Shown here: positions 11,425-32,182 of the stretch, in pieces
How positions within the stretch are numbered: the stretch's first letter is position 1
Layout of the letters: each line of letters begins with the position of its first letter
Assembly (NCBI GenBank): GCA_018303945.1
Contig: JAGVXD010000012.1
Coordinates: 1-32,182 of the forward strand
From: Candidatus Pacearchaeota archaeon
Lineage (GTDB): Archaea > Nanobdellota > Nanobdellia > Pacearchaeales > GW2011-AR1
Reading direction: 5' to 3'
Length of the DNA: 32,182 bases
The notes under the pieces: model-generated
Seen by the model: the letters and a program-made list of their open reading frames with translations, nothing else
The model's database searches: none
Told to the model about the DNA's origin: nothing
Program-made: the position numbers and the translations under genes

Positions 11425-12966
11425 ATGCCTATTATCAAGGTACAATCTCTTGATAATCTTCAAAAGATTGTAGAACAACTTAAAAAAGAAGGAAAGAAAA
11501 TAGTCCACTGTCACGGATGTTTTGACATTGTTCATTACGGGCACGTGAGACATTTCATGTCTGCAAAAGAGCAAGGAGACATACTAATAGTTACTGTAAC
11601 ACAGGATAAATTTGTGCGCAAAGGCCCGGGAAGACCATACTTCAGCGAAGACATAAGAATGCATATGATTTCTTCGCTTCAATGTGTTGATTATGTGGCG
11701 TTAAATCAATGGGAAACAGCTGTTGAGATAATTAAGATTCTTAAACCTGATGTATATGTTAAAGGCAAGGAAGTCGTTGAAAATGGAAATGTAGATATGG
11801 TGCAAGGAGAAAATGGGAAAATATCAAATATTAAAGCTGAAGAAGAAGCTGTTCTATCTGTTGGTGGAAGATTGCATTTTACTGAAGAAATTACTTTCTC
11901 ATCTACGAGAATCATTAACCAAATAACTGAAAATGTGCCTGATGAAGCTAAAATTTATTTTGGCGCACTAAAATCAAAATACTCTGCGGATGATATTATT
12001 AACCAGCTTGAACATCTAAGAGGGATAAAAGTTCTTGTAATAGGCGATGCAATAATAGATGAATATGTTTATTGCGAACAAATGGAGAGGAGCGGTAAAG
12101 AGCCATTGATTGCGTATCATCTTCTTAACTCTGAACTGCAGGCCGGAGGCGTGTTTGCTGCATCCAATCATATTGCAGGATTTACTAATCATATTGAATT
12201 AATAACTTGTATGGGAAATAACTCCCATTATGAATTTCTTAAGGGCAAACTAAAGAATGGAATACAGACGCATCTCTTTTTGCAGAATGAAAGCAAGACA
12301 CTCGTAAAGAGAAGATATGTTGATAATTACAAGCGCCAGAAACTTTTTGAGCTTTATAGCAGCAAAGGAATAGAAATTGGAAAATTAAATGAAGGCGAGA
12401 TAATAAAATGCATAGAGAGAGTTCTCCCACAGGTAGATATGATTTTAATAACTGATTTTGGTCATGGGATGCTTACTCCTGCAATGATAGATACTTTGAT
12501 GAACAGCAATAAATTTGTTGCCTTAAATTGCCAATTAAATGCCGGGAATCTGGGTTACAATTTCATTACAAAATATAGAAGAGCTAATTTTATATCCCTT
12601 AATGAGCGGGAAATTAGACTGCCTATGCAGGAAAAAAACTCCGACATAAGCGTTCCAATTGAGAAACTGAATAAGATTCTAAACGCAGACTCAATCAACA
12701 TTACTATGGGAAAACATGGGAGTATCCTTTATCATAAAGGTAACTATTATAGGGCGCCGGCATTTACAAAAGATCCTATTGATACAATAGGGGCGGGAGA
12801 CGCAGTTCTTTCCTTGCTGTCCTTGCTTACATACAAGGGATTTGACCCGGAGCTTGTTTCATTCATAGGAAATTGCGTTGGAGCAATCGCCGTACGCACA
12901 GTTGGAAACAGAGAATCAATAGATTCAATAGAAATGAATAAGTTTGTGAAATATATCATGAAATGA
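11425..12966 (+). CDS. HldE-like bifunctional protein: cytidylyltransferase domain then PfkB sugar kinase domain
   Basis: Likely phosphorylates a sugar (heptose-like) and activates it as a nucleotide sugar. Residues about 1-165 form a cytidylyltransferase-type domain: GCFDIVHYGHVRHFMSAKEQ with the HxGH motif, TVTQDKFVRKGPGRPYF, then DVYVKGKE and the C-terminal TFSSTRIINQ equivalent to the family's SSTxII. Residues about 185-505 form a PfkB/RfaE-type kinase: KVLVIGDAIIDEYVYC, LQAGGVFAASNHI, ITDFGHGML, and the catalytic GAGD at 456-459 in DTIGAGDAVLSLL. In E. coli HldE the kinase comes first and the transferase second; here the order is reversed. The true sugar and nucleotide are unknown. Confidence 0.88.
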   Translation: MPIIKVQSLDNLQKIVEQLKKEGKKIVHCHGCFDIVHYGHVRHFMSAKEQGDILIVTVTQDKFVRKGPGRPYFSEDIRMHMISSLQCVDYVALNQWETAVEIIKILKPDVYVKGKEVVENGNVDMVQGENGKISNIKAEEEAVLSVGGRLHFTEEITFSSTRIINQITENVPDEAKIYFGALKSKYSADDIINQLEHLRGIKVLVIGDAIIDEYVYCEQMERSGKEPLIAYHLLNSELQAGGVFAASNHIAGFTNHIELITCMGNNSHYEFLKGKLKNGIQTHLFLQNESKTLVKRRYVDNYKRQKLFELYSSKGIEIGKLNEGEIIKCIERVLPQVDMILITDFGHGMLTPAMIDTLMNSNKFVALNCQLNAGNLGYNFITKYRRANFISLNEREIRLPMQEKNSDISVPIEKLNKILNADSINITMGKHGSILYHKGNYYRAPAFTKDPIDTIGAGDAVLSLLSLLTYKGFDPELVSFIGNCVGAIAVRTVGNRESIDSIEMNKFVKYIMK

Positions 12967-12996: not shown

Positions 12997-13018
12997 CAAG
13001 ATAATATTGAATAAAGAA

Positions 13019-13999
13019 ATGGGAAAAAGAGTTTGTGTTATGGGTGGTGCTGGATACGTGGGGAGCGCCCTCGTGCCGAGATTACTGGAAAGAGGAGATG
13101 ATGTTATGGTATATGATACTTATTGGTATGGTGATATATTTGGAGAAATGCGGAATTGTAAATTAAAGGAAGTAAGAGGCGATATAAGAGACCGAAGTAA
13201 ATTATTAGACAATATTAAAGGGATGGATGCAATTTTACATCTTGCCTGCATATCTAATGATCCAAGTTTTGATTTAAATCCCTCTCTCGGCAGATCAATA
13301 AATCTTGATGCATTCCATAATGTATTAGATGTTGCGCGCCAGAATCCTGAAGCAAGATTTGTTTATGCAAGCTCTTCAAGCGTATATGGAGTAAAGAAAG
13401 AAAAAGAAGTTATTGAGGAAATGATAGAAGAGCCGCTTACAGATTATTCTAAATTTAAACTTGAATGTGAGAAAATTCTCAAGGCAGAAGCTAGAGACCT
13501 GGATTATGTTATTGTGCGCCCAGCTACCGTATGTGGATATGCCCCTAGATTGAGATTAGATGTTGTAGTTAATATACTCACGATTAATGCTCTTGAGCGA
13601 GGAATTATATTAGTAGATGGCGGAGAACAAACAAGGCCCAATATACACGTTAAAGATATGGTTGGAGTTTATGAAAAACTTATAGACTCTCCTAGCGATA
13701 AAACTCGTTATGAAATATTTAATGCCGGAGATGAGAATCATTCTGTCAGAGAATTAGCTGAAATAGTTAGAAGAAAGGTTCCTAATGCAACTATACAAAT
13801 TAATCCTGTAAAAGACCAACGCTCATATAATGTAAACTCTGATAAGATTAAGAGATTTCTTGGATTTAGAACTAGCGAGACAATAGAATCTGCAGTAGAA
13901 AGTATAGTTGATGCTTATAGGGAAGGAAAGATAATTGAAGGGCTTACTAATCCAATTTACCATAATATCAAAAGAATGAAAGAGTTGAATATCTCGTAA
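13019..13999 (+). CDS. NAD-dependent sugar epimerase/dehydratase (extended SDR)
   Basis: Acts on a nucleotide sugar, oxidising and reducing at C4 or a neighbouring carbon. From ATG 13019 the 326-residue protein has the Rossmann motif GGAGYVG (9-15), GDIRD near 54-58, the substrate serines in VYASSSSVYG near 115-124, and the catalytic pair Y143/K147 in DYSKFK. Downstream come RPATVCGYAPRLRLDVVVN and RPNIHVKDM, family features that line the sugar pocket. Preceded by the HldE-like gene, so it may convert that product. The specific reaction (4-epimerase, 4,6-dehydratase, 3,5-epimerase-type) cannot be told from motifs. Confidence 0.87.
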   Translation: MGKRVCVMGGAGYVGSALVPRLLERGDDVMVYDTYWYGDIFGEMRNCKLKEVRGDIRDRSKLLDNIKGMDAILHLACISNDPSFDLNPSLGRSINLDAFHNVLDVARQNPEARFVYASSSSVYGVKKEKEVIEEMIEEPLTDYSKFKLECEKILKAEARDLDYVIVRPATVCGYAPRLRLDVVVNILTINALERGIILVDGGEQTRPNIHVKDMVGVYEKLIDSPSDKTRYEIFNAGDENHSVRELAEIVRRKVPNATIQINPVKDQRSYNVNSDKIKRFLGFRTSETIESAVESIVDAYREGKIIEGLTNPIYHNIKRMKELNIS

Positions 14000-14065: not shown

Positions 14066-15613
14066 ATGGTAAAAAATGCTTCTAATCTTAAAGGAACAAT
14101 ATTTGCTAATTCTCTCTGGAACGTGATGGCTTCTCTTATCGGAAGAGCTGGAGCTCTTGTTTTTACAATTATCATAGCCAGAGCATTACTGCCTGAAACA
14201 TTTGGCATTTATTCCCTCGCATTGTCTATTGCTGTTTTCTGCCTCACATTTACAGATCTTGGGATTAATCAAGCCCTTATCATATATGTCTCAACATATT
14301 TGAAAAACAATAAGAGCAAGGCGCGGTCTTATTTTATTGCGCTTATGCGTTATAAGCTTATAATGACCTTAAGCGTTGCTGGAATAATAATACTTGCCTC
14401 TTATCCATTATCTTTCTTTATATTTAATAAACCTGATTTATTTGTCCCGCTCTTATTTATTGGCGGATATATAGTGATAACTTCCATAGAGGGATTTCTG
14501 GAATCATTGTTTTATGCCTTTAACAAAGTAAGTTACATGACTTCTAAAGAGATAATATTTCAGGCTACAAGGCTAATACTGTCTATTCTCGTTCTTACTT
14601 TAGTTGCCACTTCGTCTTATGTGGCTGGGCTTGTTGGAGCACTTATACTCACAATGGTAGCTGTTATTGTTTACGTTGTATTGAGCCTAAGAAAAATAGG
14701 TAAATTTATCTTTGAAAGAGGAGAAAGTCTGGATATTGATAAAGTTGGATTGTTAAAGTTCATAGGATATATATCTGTTGGAATAACTGCTGCAGCATTG
14801 TTTGCATCTATAGATATAATAATGCTGGGCATATTCGTGCCCTCTGAATATATTGGATTTTATAAAGCGGCATTTACTCTTGTATCAAGCATAATAGGTA
14901 TTCTGACATTCTATAATATATTTCTTCCCGTATTTAGCAAACTTGGCAATGAAAAAACTGAAGAAATGTTTAACACTATATTCAAATATCTTTCTATTAT
15001 TGGACTGCCCGCAGTTTTTGGACTCTTGAGCATTGGTCCATATGTCCTAAAGGCAGTTTATGGCGACTCTTATATTCCTGCCACTCCGATATTATATATT
15101 CTCGCCCCTTTGATATTCATTGAATTATTGGCTGCTCTTGTTTCATCTGTTTTTTCAGCTAAGAAAAAGCCTGAATATCTTGCGAAGATTATGCTATTTT
15201 CCCTTGTACTAAATGTCCTGCTTAATTTATCACTTATAACCCTATTATTAAAGAACTCTGCTATTTTGGCAACAATTGGTGTAGGGGCGGCAACAGTTAT
15301 AAGTAAATTGGTTTACTTAATAGTATTATTCTTTTTGTTAATAAAAGTAATGAAAGTCAGGGCGAAACTTGGAGTTGTCATTAAGCCGCTTGCAGCCAGC
15401 ATTATTATGTCTATATGCCTTATACTTATAAATAAGTCTATATCTGACATGAACTGGTTCTGGGGAGGTCTGGAGATAATAGCCGGGATAATAGTTTATG
15501 GAATAATTATTATATTAATTGGGGCAATTAATAAATCTGAAATTAAAATGTTTTATTCATTTTTCAGAGCTCTAGTTCCTGCAAGACCGCCTGAAACTCC
15601 TCTTCACTCCTGA
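14066..15613 (+). CDS. Wzx/RfbX-type oligosaccharide flippase
   Basis: MOP-superfamily transporter that would move lipid-linked glycans across the membrane. 515 residues with about 13-14 membrane spans. The opening NSLWNVMASLIGRAGALVFT followed by IARALLPETFGIYSLALS is the standard polysaccharide-flippase start, and the second half repeats the pattern with DIIMLGIFVPSEYIGFYKAA and VFSKLG. The length is usual for the family. Placed after glycosyltransferase and sugar-activation genes, it supports reading the locus as assembly of a lipid-linked surface glycan. Converges with the radical SAM gene, 12 bp between stops. Confidence 0.9.
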   Translation: MVKNASNLKGTIFANSLWNVMASLIGRAGALVFTIIIARALLPETFGIYSLALSIAVFCLTFTDLGINQALIIYVSTYLKNNKSKARSYFIALMRYKLIMTLSVAGIIILASYPLSFFIFNKPDLFVPLLFIGGYIVITSIEGFLESLFYAFNKVSYMTSKEIIFQATRLILSILVLTLVATSSYVAGLVGALILTMVAVIVYVVLSLRKIGKFIFERGESLDIDKVGLLKFIGYISVGITAAALFASIDIIMLGIFVPSEYIGFYKAAFTLVSSIIGILTFYNIFLPVFSKLGNEKTEEMFNTIFKYLSIIGLPAVFGLLSIGPYVLKAVYGDSYIPATPILYILAPLIFIELLAALVSSVFSAKKKPEYLAKIMLFSLVLNVLLNLSLITLLLKNSAILATIGVGAATVISKLVYLIVLFFLLIKVMKVRAKLGVVIKPLAASIIMSICLILINKSISDMNWFWGGLEIIAGIIVYGIIIILIGAINKSEIKMFYSFFRALVPARPPETPLHS

Positions 15614-17157: not shown

Positions 17158-18226
17158 ATGAGAGTAAAGTATTCTTATCTTGAAGAACAATTCAAAAATC
17201 CTGATTATATTCTTAGAGATTTGGAGAAACTTGTAAAAAGAGGAGATTTTACACTTGGAAAAGAAGTTGAAATATTTGAGAAGAGATTTGCCCAGCTTGC
17301 TTCTGCAAAATTTGCGGTTGGTGTTTCATCCGGAACTGCCGCTCTCTTGCTTGGATTGCAGGCAGTTGGAGTTGGGCATGGTGATGAAGTTATAACTGCT
17401 CCAAATACTTTTTTTGCGAGCGTTAATGCTATTGCTGCGGTTGGCGCAAAACCTGTTTTTGTAGATGTTGGAGAGGATTATAACATAAATAGTGAGCTTA
17501 TTGAAAACGCAATAAATGAGCGCACAGAGACCTGCGGCAATGAATGAAATTGTAGACATTGCCAGAAAACATGGACTAAAAGTAATTGAAGACGCGGCTC
17601 AAGCAATTGGAGCAAACTATCGTGGGAGGCATGTAGGTAATTTCGGAGATACAGGAGGATTTAGCTTCCATCCACTAAAGAATCTAAATGTGTGGGGTGA
17701 TGCTGGAATGATTATCACAAATAATCCAGATATATCTGTTTCTTTGTGTGAACTCCGTAATCAAGGATTAAAAGATAGAGATACTTGGACAAGATATGGG
17801 CACAATCTTAGAATTTCATCATTACAAGCATTGGTAGGTAAACATCTGATTAAAGACACTTCTGATTTGACAGAGAGAAGAATTGCAAATGCATTGAATT
17901 ATGACAAAGAACTAAGAGATATCGAAGAGATTACTTTTCCCCAGAGAATGATAGAATTGCGTGAGGTCTTTCATACATATGTAATACAAGCTGAAAGAAG
18001 AGACGAACTAAATAAATATCTAAACGAAAAAGGAATAGAATCTAAGATACACTATCCGGTGCCACTTCATTTGCAGCCGGCGACAAAATATCTGGGATAT
18101 AAAAAGGGAGATTTTCCTCAAACTGAAATGCAAGCAGAAAGAATTATATCTCTTCCTGTTCATCCATATCTAAAAGAAAGAGAAAAGAAGAAAGTTATTG
18201 AAACCATAAAGGAGTTTTACAGATAA
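17158..18226 (+). pseudogene. DegT/DnrJ/EryC1-family sugar aminotransferase, frameshifted
   Basis: PLP enzyme that aminates keto-sugars on nucleotide carriers. Two overlapping frames together make one protein. Frame 1 (17158-17526) encodes the N-terminal 123 residues (FAVGVSSGTAALLLGLQAV, DEVITAPNTFFASVNA). Frame 2 (from 17528) encodes 232 residues with the cofactor Asp in VIEDAAQAIGA and the PLP lysine in FHPLKNLNVWGDAG, through IKEFYR. At the joint the family's usual KAIIPVHLTG-type stretch of about 10 residues is missing and the frame shifts (about 29 nt lost), so frame 1 ends eight codons later at TGA 17545-17547. The joint lies exactly at the end of a 99-bp repeat shared with the next gene. 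True mutation or assembly error is not decided here. The stop overlaps the next ATG by one base. Confidence 0.85.
17428..17526 (+). repeat. 99-bp exact direct repeat, copy 1
   Basis: Identical base for base to 18499-18597, offset 1071 bp. Encodes AIAAVGAKPVFVDV...INERT in the first DegT gene. The flanks diverge at once on the left; on the right this copy runs straight into the deletion joint. Confidence 0.97.
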
Positions 18227-19203
18227 TGGAAGTACCTTATGTAAATATTGCCTTGCAATATAAAGGATTAGAACATGAGATTTTACCTGTTGTAAAAGAA
18301 GTTCTTAAAAGTGGAAGTTATATTCTTGGAAAAGAATTAAATCGTTTTGAGCATAGAATAGCTGGTTTTTGCAGAACAAGATACGCGATAGGAGTTGCGA
18401 ATGGAACTGACGCTCTTAGATTATCTTTACACGCGCTTAATATAGGGAGGGATGATGAGGTAATTACTGCTCCTAACTCTTTTATTGCAAGTGCCGGAGC
18501 TATTGCTGCGGTTGGCGCAAAACCTGTTTTTGTAGATGTTGGAGAGGATTATAACATAAATAGTGAGCTTATTGAAAACGCAATAAATGAGCGCACAAAC
18601 TATCGTGGAAGACGCACAGGTTCTCTGGGAGATGTCGGATGTTTCAGTACACATCCTCTTAAAACATTGCATACTGCCGGAGATGGGGGATTTATTACAA
18701 CTGACAGCCAAGAAATTTATGAAAGAATAATTAAATTGCGAAATCATGGTTTAAAGAACAGGGAAGAATCGGAATTTTTTGGATATAACAGTAGACTTGA
18801 TGAAATACATGCGGCTATTCTAAACACTCAATTAGAATATGTAGAGATATGGAATAAGCAAAGAAGAGATATTGCTCTCCGTTACAGCTCAGAGTTATCT
18901 CCCATTGTAGATACGCCTGAAGAAAAATCTTATGAGGAATCATCATATCACACGTTTGTAATTCAGGCTAAAAATCGCGATTCTTTGCGCCTGCATCTGT
19001 CCAATATGGGTATAGAAACAAAGATTCATTATCCCATTCCAATTCACCTGCAACAGGCGGCAAAATATCTAGGATATCGCTCTGGTGCATTTCCTGTTGC
19101 AGAAAGACAATCGAGCCAGATTCTCTCTCTTCCTGTGTATCCTGAATTAACATCAAAACAAATAGAAAAAGTTATTGAAGGAGTAACTTCTTTTTATAAA
19201 TAA
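18226..19203 (+). CDS. DegT/DnrJ/EryC1-family sugar aminotransferase with internal in-frame deletion
   Basis: Second aminotransferase in tandem with the first, sharing TAATG coupling and a GGAG site at 18211-18214. The 325-residue product has VANGTDALRLSLHALNI, DEVITAPNSFIASAGA, the PLP lysine in STHPLKTLHTAGDGG, and the family C-terminus IHYPIPIHLQQAAKYLGY. Compared with the reconstructed upstream paralogue it lacks about 39 residues right after INERT, jumping straight to NYRGRRTGSLGD. The missing part should carry the PVHLTG strand and the EDAAQA aspartate that binds the PLP ring nitrogen, so as written the enzyme should be inactive. Adding 39 residues gives about 364, the normal family length. 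An assembly artefact is likely. Confidence 0.85.
   Translation: MEVPYVNIALQYKGLEHEILPVVKEVLKSGSYILGKELNRFEHRIAGFCRTRYAIGVANGTDALRLSLHALNIGRDDEVITAPNSFIASAGAIAAVGAKPVFVDVGEDYNINSELIENAINERTNYRGRRTGSLGDVGCFSTHPLKTLHTAGDGGFITTDSQEIYERIIKLRNHGLKNREESEFFGYNSRLDEIHAAILNTQLEYVEIWNKQRRDIALRYSSELSPIVDTPEEKSYEESSYHTFVIQAKNRDSLRLHLSNMGIETKIHYPIPIHLQQAAKYLGYRSGAFPVAERQSSQILSLPVYPELTSKQIEKVIEGVTSFYK
18499..18597 (+). repeat. 99-bp exact direct repeat, copy 2
   Basis: Exact copy of 17428-17526 within the second DegT gene. Immediately after it the in-frame deletion of about 117 bp begins. The 13-mer CAAACTATCGTGG after the joint is also shared with the first gene. Confidence 0.97.
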
Positions 19204-28550: not shown

Positions 28551-29570
28551 TCAAAATGCCCCTACTTTCTGCAATAACTCTGTAATTTCTTCACGGTTAA
28601 GCATTCTTGCATTAGATGAATGGAATGGCTCTTTAACTCCAAGAGGTGATGTAATTCCCATATTGCTGTGAGGTCTTATTACGAAATTATGCCCTACATC
28701 TATAGTGTCTTTGCATTCAAAATCTGCAATAAGACACTCGTGTGTTTTTTCTCCGGGGCGTCTTCCAATTATCTCCACCGGCACCTTGCTTTTGCTCATG
28801 ATTTCCGCAATATTGCCAAGTAAAACTGCTGGCATCTTGACTGATATAACATCTCCGCCTAAACCATAGATTAAAGCATATAATATCAAGTCTATGGAGT
28901 CATCAAGAGTAAACATGAAACGCGTCATTGTTGGGTCTGTGACTTTGATTGGCTCTCCTTTTTCATATGCTTTTTTCCAGTGAGGAACAACTGAACCAGT
29001 AGTCATTAGGACGTTGCCATATCTTACAGTAAGGAATTTTGTATTTAATGTGCTGTATTTTGTGCGTTCAGCTTCGCAGAATAGCTTTTCCATTAATGCT
29101 TTTGACATACCGTATACATTAATGGGGGAAGCGGCTTTATCTGTAGAAATACCCAGACATATCCCTACATTTTTTTCATCCTTCACAGCATTTATTACAT
29201 TCATAGAGCCATCAATGTTAGTTTTTATGCATTCCATTACCTGGTTTTCCGCAAGGTCTAGGTATTTGAAAGCCGCAGCATGGATAACTATATCTACACC
29301 TACAACTGCATTGCGAATTGAGAAATAATCGCGAACATCTCCCAATAAATACTTGCAGCGCGCATCCGGGTATCTTTCTCTGGTTAAATCCTGCAGTTTC
29401 TCATCCCGACTTAGTATCCTTATTTCTCTTGGATTAAGTGCCAGAAGCCTGCCTATGAGTGCATTGCCTAAGGCACCTGAACCGCCAGTTATTAAAATTA
29501 CTTTGTTAGAAATGAATGTTTCAGCAGTAGAGCGATCCACCTTCCCATTTAGATAATTTGTATGAGTCAT
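28551..29570 (-). CDS. UDP-HexNAc 4,6-dehydratase-like SDR (CapE/PseB/FlaA1 group)
   Basis: Removes water from UDP-GlcNAc or a similar sugar to give a 4-keto-6-deoxy product, the substrate on which DegT-type aminotransferases act. The 339-residue protein has the Rossmann motif TGGSGALG at 28-35, LLGDVRD near 75-81, IHAAAFKYLDLAE at 96-108, and the signature ISTDKAASPINVYGMSK with T143, D144, K145, Y153 and K157. MTRFMFTLDDSIDLI is a further group mark. It is a short, soluble form without membrane spans. First gene of its operon with a TATA box 26 bp upstream. Confidence 0.9.
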   Translation of the reverse strand: MTHTNYLNGKVDRSTAETFISNKVILITGGSGALGNALIGRLLALNPREIRILSRDEKLQDLTRERYPDARCKYLLGDVRDYFSIRNAVVGVDIVIHAAAFKYLDLAENQVMECIKTNIDGSMNVINAVKDEKNVGICLGISTDKAASPINVYGMSKALMEKLFCEAERTKYSTLNTKFLTVRYGNVLMTTGSVVPHWKKAYEKGEPIKVTDPTMTRFMFTLDDSIDLILYALIYGLGGDVISVKMPAVLLGNIAEIMSKSKVPVEIIGRRPGEKTHECLIADFECKDTIDVGHNFVIRPHSNMGITSPLGVKEPFHSSNARMLNREEITELLQKVGAF

Positions 29571-30871: not shown

Positions 30872-31609
30872 ATGAGAAATAGTAAAGAAATTCTTAATAG
30901 TGCTCCTTTTCCAGTACATTATGCGCGAGTTCTTGCTTATGGATTAAATCCTATTTTATACTCTGGATGCCCATCACCTGAAGTATGTAAACTGCGCGAG
31001 CTTATTTTTGGAGAGCATTTGAGTCAGTTATCTTCTTTTTTTAGAGGCAAGGAGGAGAATTTGATGCCTCCTACTCGGTTGAGATTTAATAATCTGCATG
31101 AAATATTGTCTTTGGCCGGGTCTGAAGAGATGATGGAAAAAGGTCTTAGCGAGAGGAGGGAGATTCTTAAACAGGCATCCAACCATTATGCTGATATTAT
31201 GAGAGAAGAGGTTTGCCCGCTTGCGCTTAAAGTGGACGAGCCAGAGCAAAGAGAATATATTCAAGTCATTACAGATTCTGTATTTAAAGAAATCTCTAAC
31301 GGTCTTAATCTCTCTGGAAAGTTTGCAGAGACTCTCTCTACAAAAGGCATTGTCCCATTTTTTAGAGCAGAAGGTGCATTGCATATTTATGCAATAAGGC
31401 ATTTTATTAAAAAAGAATGTGAATATATGAATAGAGAACATATGAGAAAAATTACTCGTGAAGAAGCGATTAGGAATATAGAGCTTTATGGTAATTTTAT
31501 TCCTGTTGGAGGCCAAGCATTTATCGAGATGAGTAATATGGAATGGGTAAGTTTTGGAAAAAAGATACATTTTGAGGACTATCTGGATGATTTCTTTCTG
31601 AAAAGATAA
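30872..31609 (+). CDS. Hypothetical helical protein, 245 residues
   Basis: Not recognised. Soluble and mostly helical, without signal peptide or membrane spans. Conserved-looking spots are FPVHYARVLAYGLNP near the start, LYSGCPSPEVCKL with two Cys near residues 33-40, FRAEGALHIYAIRHFIKKEC with a His-rich helix near 165-185, and NFIPVGGQAFIEM near 210. Cys and His placement could bind a metal, but no known pattern is completed. The gene is divergent from a glycosyltransferase and overlaps the end of the convergent carbamoyltransferase gene by 31 bp. Confidence 0.65.
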   Translation: MRNSKEILNSAPFPVHYARVLAYGLNPILYSGCPSPEVCKLRELIFGEHLSQLSSFFRGKEENLMPPTRLRFNNLHEILSLAGSEEMMEKGLSERREILKQASNHYADIMREEVCPLALKVDEPEQREYIQVITDSVFKEISNGLNLSGKFAETLSTKGIVPFFRAEGALHIYAIRHFIKKECEYMNREHMRKITREEAIRNIELYGNFIPVGGQAFIEMSNMEWVSFGKKIHFEDYLDDFFLKR

Positions 31610-32182
31610 TTACCCAATGCGAGGTATTTTAAGGCAGAGTTTTCCAGAGTATGAAAAGCATCTTCAGGAGTAAGAACATTGGGTTCGCCATGCAAATTAA
31701 ATGAGGTATTTAAGAGCGCACCTACGCCTGTTATCTTTCTGAACTCTGAAAGTATTGCATAATACTCCGGGTTCCATTCTTTATAAACTGCCTGCGGACG
31801 CACTGTATGATCATATGGATGCATTGCTGCAGGCATGTCTTTTTTAGCACTTTCAGTTCCATTAAATGTAATTACCATGTATGGGCAGGGTATTTCTTTT
31901 GGGTTTAAGAAATATTTTTTCTGCTCTTCCGCCATGACACTAGGAGTAAAGGGCATCCAAAAATCCCTGTCCTTAATCATTTCATTAAGAACCCTAATTG
32001 TATCTGGATGTGAGGGGTTTGCAAGAATGGAGCGATTCCCTAAAGCTCTAGCACCCCACTCACTCCTTCCTGAACATCGTGCAACTATCTCTCCTTTAGC
32101 AAGAAGCTGTCCGACCGCACGAGCAATGTTTTTAGAATATGTTATCTCATATTTTTTTCTTAAATTTCTCTCTTTAATGAGA
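31579..32182 (-). CDS. NodU/TobZ-type carbamoyltransferase, C-terminal part
   Basis: Enzyme that transfers a carbamoyl group to a sugar hydroxyl using carbamoyl phosphate and ATP. The gene enters from the right edge; 201 residues are inside the window. I read the frame through to 32181: the stretch before ATG 31980 gives CSGRSEWGARALGNRSILAN, the family's most conserved block (GxxExGxRALGxRSIL), then DFWMPFTPSVMAE, CPYMVITF, VRPQAV, and TGVGALLNTSFNLHGEPN with the closing PEDAFHTLENSALKYLALGN. The catalytic N-terminal domain lies outside. It suits decoration of the glycan or lipid made by this locus. Confidence 0.9.
   Translation of the reverse strand, partial: LIKERNLRKKYEITYSKNIARAVGQLLAKGEIVARCSGRSEWGARALGNRSILANPSHPDTIRVLNEMIKDRDFWMPFTPSVMAEEQKKYFLNPKEIPCPYMVITFNGTESAKKDMPAAMHPYDHTVRPQAVYKEWNPEYYAILSEFRKITGVGALLNTSFNLHGEPNVLTPEDAFHTLENSALKYLALGNYLFRKKSSR

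Follow-up and report, generated by a model that had tools for sequence, protein, structure and literature searches.

Two tandem sugar aminotransferase genes of a Pacearchaeota archaeon probably share a converted tract that was misjoined in assembly

The window, a 32,182-nucleotide stretch of Candidatus Pacearchaeota DNA, carries two adjacent genes for DegT-type sugar aminotransferases, and both are broken in the printed sequence. We conclude, with near certainty, that the two genes are intact in the real genome and that an identical 227-bp tract within them, called R here, arose by gene conversion and was misjoined by the assembler.

Both genes belong to Pfam family PF01041, with the two pieces of gene 1 scoring 123.9 and 201.9 bits and gene 2 scoring 297 bits against a gathering cut-off of 19.8. 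They resemble the DegT/DnrJ/EryC1/StrS sugar aminotransferases in their fold family, in the catalytic HPLK lysine motif carried by each gene, and in lying as a tandem pair within a surface-glycan gene cluster (Table 1). The nearest solved structures are those of nucleotide-sugar aminotransferases, with chains 7b0d, 3frk (QdtB), and 3uwc. Among the NCBIfam models for sugar transaminases (PseC, WecE, and others), no equivalog or subfamily cut-off is reached, and the best scores lie below half of the curated cut-offs. Side-by-side DegT pairs recur in unrelated phyla (records L068, L069, L072, L073, and L077), which suggests a conserved two-enzyme module. An integrase-core (rve) transposase-like gene lies on the minus strand near the left end of the contig (2214-3053).

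Table 1. Coordinates of the tandem genes, the pieces of tract R, the contig ends, and the surface-glycan neighbours in the window
Feature	Position	Strand	Remark
Tandem DegT gene 1	17158-18226	+	Seam splits the gene into frames 17158-17547 and 17528-18226; PF01041 E = 1.2e-35 and 2.2e-59
First 99 nt of R, gene 1	17428-17526	+	One graph word; exact match to 18499-18597
Last 99 nt of R, gene 1	17527-17625	+	One graph word; 29 nt lost at 17526/17527
Tandem DegT gene 2	18226-19203	+	39 codons lost in frame at 18597/18598; PF01041 E = 2.8e-88, two stretches
First 99 nt of R, gene 2	18499-18597	+	Exact match to 17428-17526
Last 11 nt of R, gene 2	18598-18608	+	Expected word of 99 nt is short by 88 nt
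Left contig end	1-99		Exact 99-nt word common to the end of contig C16
Right contig end	32084-32182		Exact 99-nt word common to the end of contig C15
Cytidylyltransferase/kinase	11425-12966		Surface-glycan neighbour
NAD epimerase	13007-13999		Surface-glycan neighbour
Polysaccharide flippase-type protein	14066-15613		Surface-glycan neighbour
Polysacc_synt_2 protein	28551-29570		Surface-glycan neighbour
Carbamoyltransferase piece	31579-32181		At the contig end

The shared repeat and the two seams

The tandem genes have an exact 99-bp repeat in common, and no other direct exact repeat in the window reaches 31 bp. A preliminary description, made from the sequence alone, had reported this repeat at 17428-17526 and 18499-18597 with diverged flanks. 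Those coordinates are exact, and the codons that flank the tract are 54% identical in nucleotides between the genes and 43% identical at third positions. The length of the repeat is far beyond any chance match: in a comparable gene pair, other than that of the window, the longest match against codon-shuffled copies was 15 nt.

In both genes, the break immediately follows the letters GCGCACA, so the two breaks begin at the same base, as the preliminary description had stated. Beyond the seam, gene 1 resumes in another frame, and gene 2 resumes in frame at NYRG. In gene 1, the PLP-ring aspartate and the catalytic lysine are both encoded, in a frame other than that of the N-terminal part, and gene 2 as printed has lost the PLP-ring aspartate of its EDAAQ motif at the seam. 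The remainder of both frames is open and conserved. No N is printed at either joint.

The sizes of the gaps were measured against 16 intact homologues, namely the tandem pairs of two related archaeal genomes (G016 and G171), the third DegT genes of both archaea, and bacterial pairs from Gemmatimonadales, Omnitrophota, Bacteriovoracaceae, Opitutales, and Pelagibacteraceae records. A scan of genome contigs yielded distant tandem pairs only, which served as length controls. Neither the relatives nor the 181 genomes of the family that were searched included another member of the genus carrying the locus. Across the copy-1 gap, from the threonine to the RPA position, exactly 10 residues are present in all 16 homologues; across the copy-2 gap, up to the NYRG position, 39 residues are present in 15 of the 16. 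Thus, copy 1 has lost 29 nt (10 codons minus one retained G), which shifts the frame, and the loss in copy 2 amounts to 117 nt (39 codons), which preserves it. The earlier estimates of about 10 residues with a frameshift and about 39 residues in frame, the PLP-ring aspartate among them, were therefore sound. With the gaps counted in, each gene comes to 364 residues. Of the lengths of 365 and 364 proposed previously, the second is borne out and the first is one residue too long; the intact gene 1 orthologues of G016 and G171 encode about 363 residues. The copy-1 gap and, independently, the copy-2 gap both give 227 bp for the shared tract. Very probably, the true gene pair shares an identical tract of this length, the middle of which has been lost at the two joints.

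A second 99-bp stretch, which the preliminary description overlooked, lies in copy 1. The distance between its seam and the renewed divergence of the genes is once more exactly 99 bp, such that copy 1 reads as 99 nt abutting 99 nt. The outer limits of this arrangement are the visible first differences between the genes and do not depend on any model. In copy 2, the second shared block retains 11 of the expected 99 nt to the right of the seam, 88 nt fewer than simple abutment would leave. The dinucleotide CA is common to both sides of this joint; counting it, 13 nt of R are retained.

Word length of the assembly and origin of the joints

The source genome comprises 803,700 bases in 22 contigs and is 86.9% complete; the window is its contig C14. 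We sampled the genome as contig ends together with approximately 325 kb of stretches. Comparison of the 44 contig ends yields 14 exact terminal overlaps that are 20 nt or longer. Nine of these are exactly 99 nt, including those at both ends of the window contig, and the others measure 77 nt (once) and 74 nt (four times). The graph word length of this assembly is 99 nt. For comparison, the end words left at repeat breaks equal the maximum k in metaSPAdes and MEGAHIT and the maximum k minus one in IDBA-UD (PMC10914622). The left contig end (1-498) falls within a gene for an ABC transporter ATPase, and the terminal 74-99 nt of this gene are common to four contig ends (C14, C15, C16, and C20). This sharing indicates that the repeated transporter gene breaks the assembly.

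An unmerged parallel to the tandem genes exists in the same genome. Specifically, a 121-bp repeat occupies positions 1084-1204 of contig C16; contig C1 ends with its first 99 nt, and C16 starts with its last 99 nt. Against a misjoin at R, a 102-bp internal exact repeat in contig C10 was assembled without visible trouble, which shows that a repeat slightly longer than the word need not break the assembly. Contig C12 carries a run of 1713 Ns (record L105, 1618-3330), which means that the assembly was scaffolded. Local assembly errors and bad scaffolding joints are documented in metagenome assemblies (PMC7111523), and SPAdes misassemblies arise mainly from repeat resolution (PMC5481147).

From these observations, the following sequence of events can be proposed. 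Recent gene conversion would have left the identical 227-bp tract in both genes. Because R is longer than the 99-nt word, it could not be walked in the graph without further information, and a de Bruijn assembler with 99-nt end words would have failed to traverse it. The first 99 nt of R would then have formed the end of the upstream piece of each gene, and the last 99 nt the start of each downstream piece. A later step, presumably scaffolding or gap closing, would have made both joints by abutting the pieces without the middle of R, which we take to be identical in the two genes. In copy 1, word would have met word, with the downstream piece keeping its whole first word and 29 nt being lost. 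In copy 2, the word would have been joined to the last 11 nt of R, with the loss of 117 nt. This second joint counts to some extent against the scheme, since it is no clean abutment and requires an extra trimming of 88 nt, possibly at the shared CA.

The arrangement resembles a known de Bruijn repeat breakpoint (PMC10914622, PMC7111523) in three respects: exact 99-nt words occur where contigs end and again to the left and right of the copy-1 seam, the repeat exceeds the word, and the assembly is scaffolded. It differs in that the window pieces are joined without N and in that copy 2 is trimmed by 88 nt. The preliminary description had already named as the likely cause of the breaks a short-read assembler that wrongly closed an identical block of about 230 bp, and the measured values of 227 bp for the block and 99 nt for the word agree with it.

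The unambiguous printed sequence and the in-frame nature of the copy-2 deletion would also suit two real deletions, either in a decaying gene pair or following conversion. However, two independent events would need the same starting base, and the first of them would need to have left 99 nt on either side, the very length of the contig-end word. Copy 2 would moreover lose a core strand and the PLP-ring aspartate while the rest of both frames stays conserved. We consider real deletions extremely improbable.

Gene conversion in the tandem pair

Among codons that specify the same residue in gene 1 and gene 2, 33 of 33 are identical within the tract versus 61 of 121 outside it (p = 5.6e-9), so protein conservation alone does not explain the tract. 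Inside the tract, the pair is 100% identical, versus 68-69% identity to orthologues; outside it, the pair is 53-59% identical, versus 55-68%. Given the low identity of the flanking codons, the tract is most readily read as the product of recent gene conversion. G016 and G171, which represent another genus of the same family, possess the same tandem DegT pair, intact and homogenised over the same segment. The best 30 codons are 97% and 90% identical in the G171 and G016 pairs, versus 64% overall, a contrast reached in 0 of 5000 permutations. The G171 pair contains an 82-bp exact repeat (record L140, 4884-4965 and 5990-6071; contig C1 of G171, 44884-44965 and 45990-46071) at the same codons as the window tract. 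The tract sequences of the two genera differ (68-69% identical), which argues that the conversion events were independent.

These comparisons bear on the possibility that the identical block was assembled from mixed strains and that there is no real converted tract. The draft is fragmented (22 contigs, 86.9% complete), and branches between strains also create shared end words. Against mixing, the gene order is that of the intact pairs in G016 and G171, and those intact related genes carry comparable homogenised tracts in the same place, one of them an exact 82 bp. A product of mixed strains is thus very unlikely, and the identical tract itself is, on this sequence comparison, very probably real.

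The best reading of the tract is repeated conversion over short distances, within the core segment of the gene that is conserved most strongly. Such a segment may offer the longest matches for recombination and the cheapest swaps. We regard it as somewhat probable that codons of about 90-124 (extending to 165 here) are a recurrent conversion spot in the tandem DegT pairs of this archaeal family, with independent tracts in at least two genera. In the five bacterial tandem pairs (L068, L069, L072, L073, and L077), no 30-codon tract stands out at this position by permutation; L073 does reach p = 0.037, at a different place in its gene. For the bacterial pairs, the synonymous-codon test gives weak results (L072, p = 0.04; L068, p = 0.06). 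As for direction, R of gene 1 does not consistently resemble either gene 1 or gene 2 of G016. Within this segment, the third DegT gene of G171 (L140, 17881-17917, on contig C1 of G171) matches tandem gene 2 exactly over 37 nt, but the codon test is not significant (p = 0.13). Perhaps this third paralogue also takes part in conversion.

Homogenisation of one place in two genera could also be taken as the mark of programmed recombination that varies the specificity of the sugar enzyme, with the window having caught an intermediate. Yet the tract is a conserved core segment (GAKPVFVD...AITxKTKAILPVHL), and the genome as assembled contains no third copy of R that could act as a silent cassette or hold the lost middle. 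Furthermore, conversion makes the two genes more alike, so a role in varying the sugar is not favoured. The probability of such a system is negligible, and the earlier suggestion of recombination to vary the enzyme is not supported: the shared tract belongs to the core of the fold, which is conserved, and it is being homogenised rather than diversified. The companion suggestion, gene conversion followed by deletion, survives in part. Conversion stands as the source of the identical block and fails as the cause of the deletions.

The pattern resembles gene conversion and concerted evolution among prokaryotic paralogues (PMC6053082) in its synonymous identity inside the tract with divergence outside, and in its recurrence in related genera. 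Unlike the whole-gene conversion described there, that proposed here covers a short tract (about 80-230 bp) in tandem sugar aminotransferases. A search of titles and abstracts for DegT together with gene conversion returned nothing on such tandem pairs. The conversion tract is a modest event of a known kind, and the gene pair is ordinary.

Implications

Recognising the joints for what they very probably are keeps two intact genes from being labelled pseudogenes or a switching system. A further gain is a test of suspect seams that requires no reads: the length of the repeat, the span between the seam and the next divergence of the copies, and the length of the contig-end overlaps are compared, and agreement of all three on a single value marks the joint as very likely artefactual. 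What would remain for the biology is repeated short-tract gene conversion in the tandem sugar aminotransferases of archaea with small genomes.
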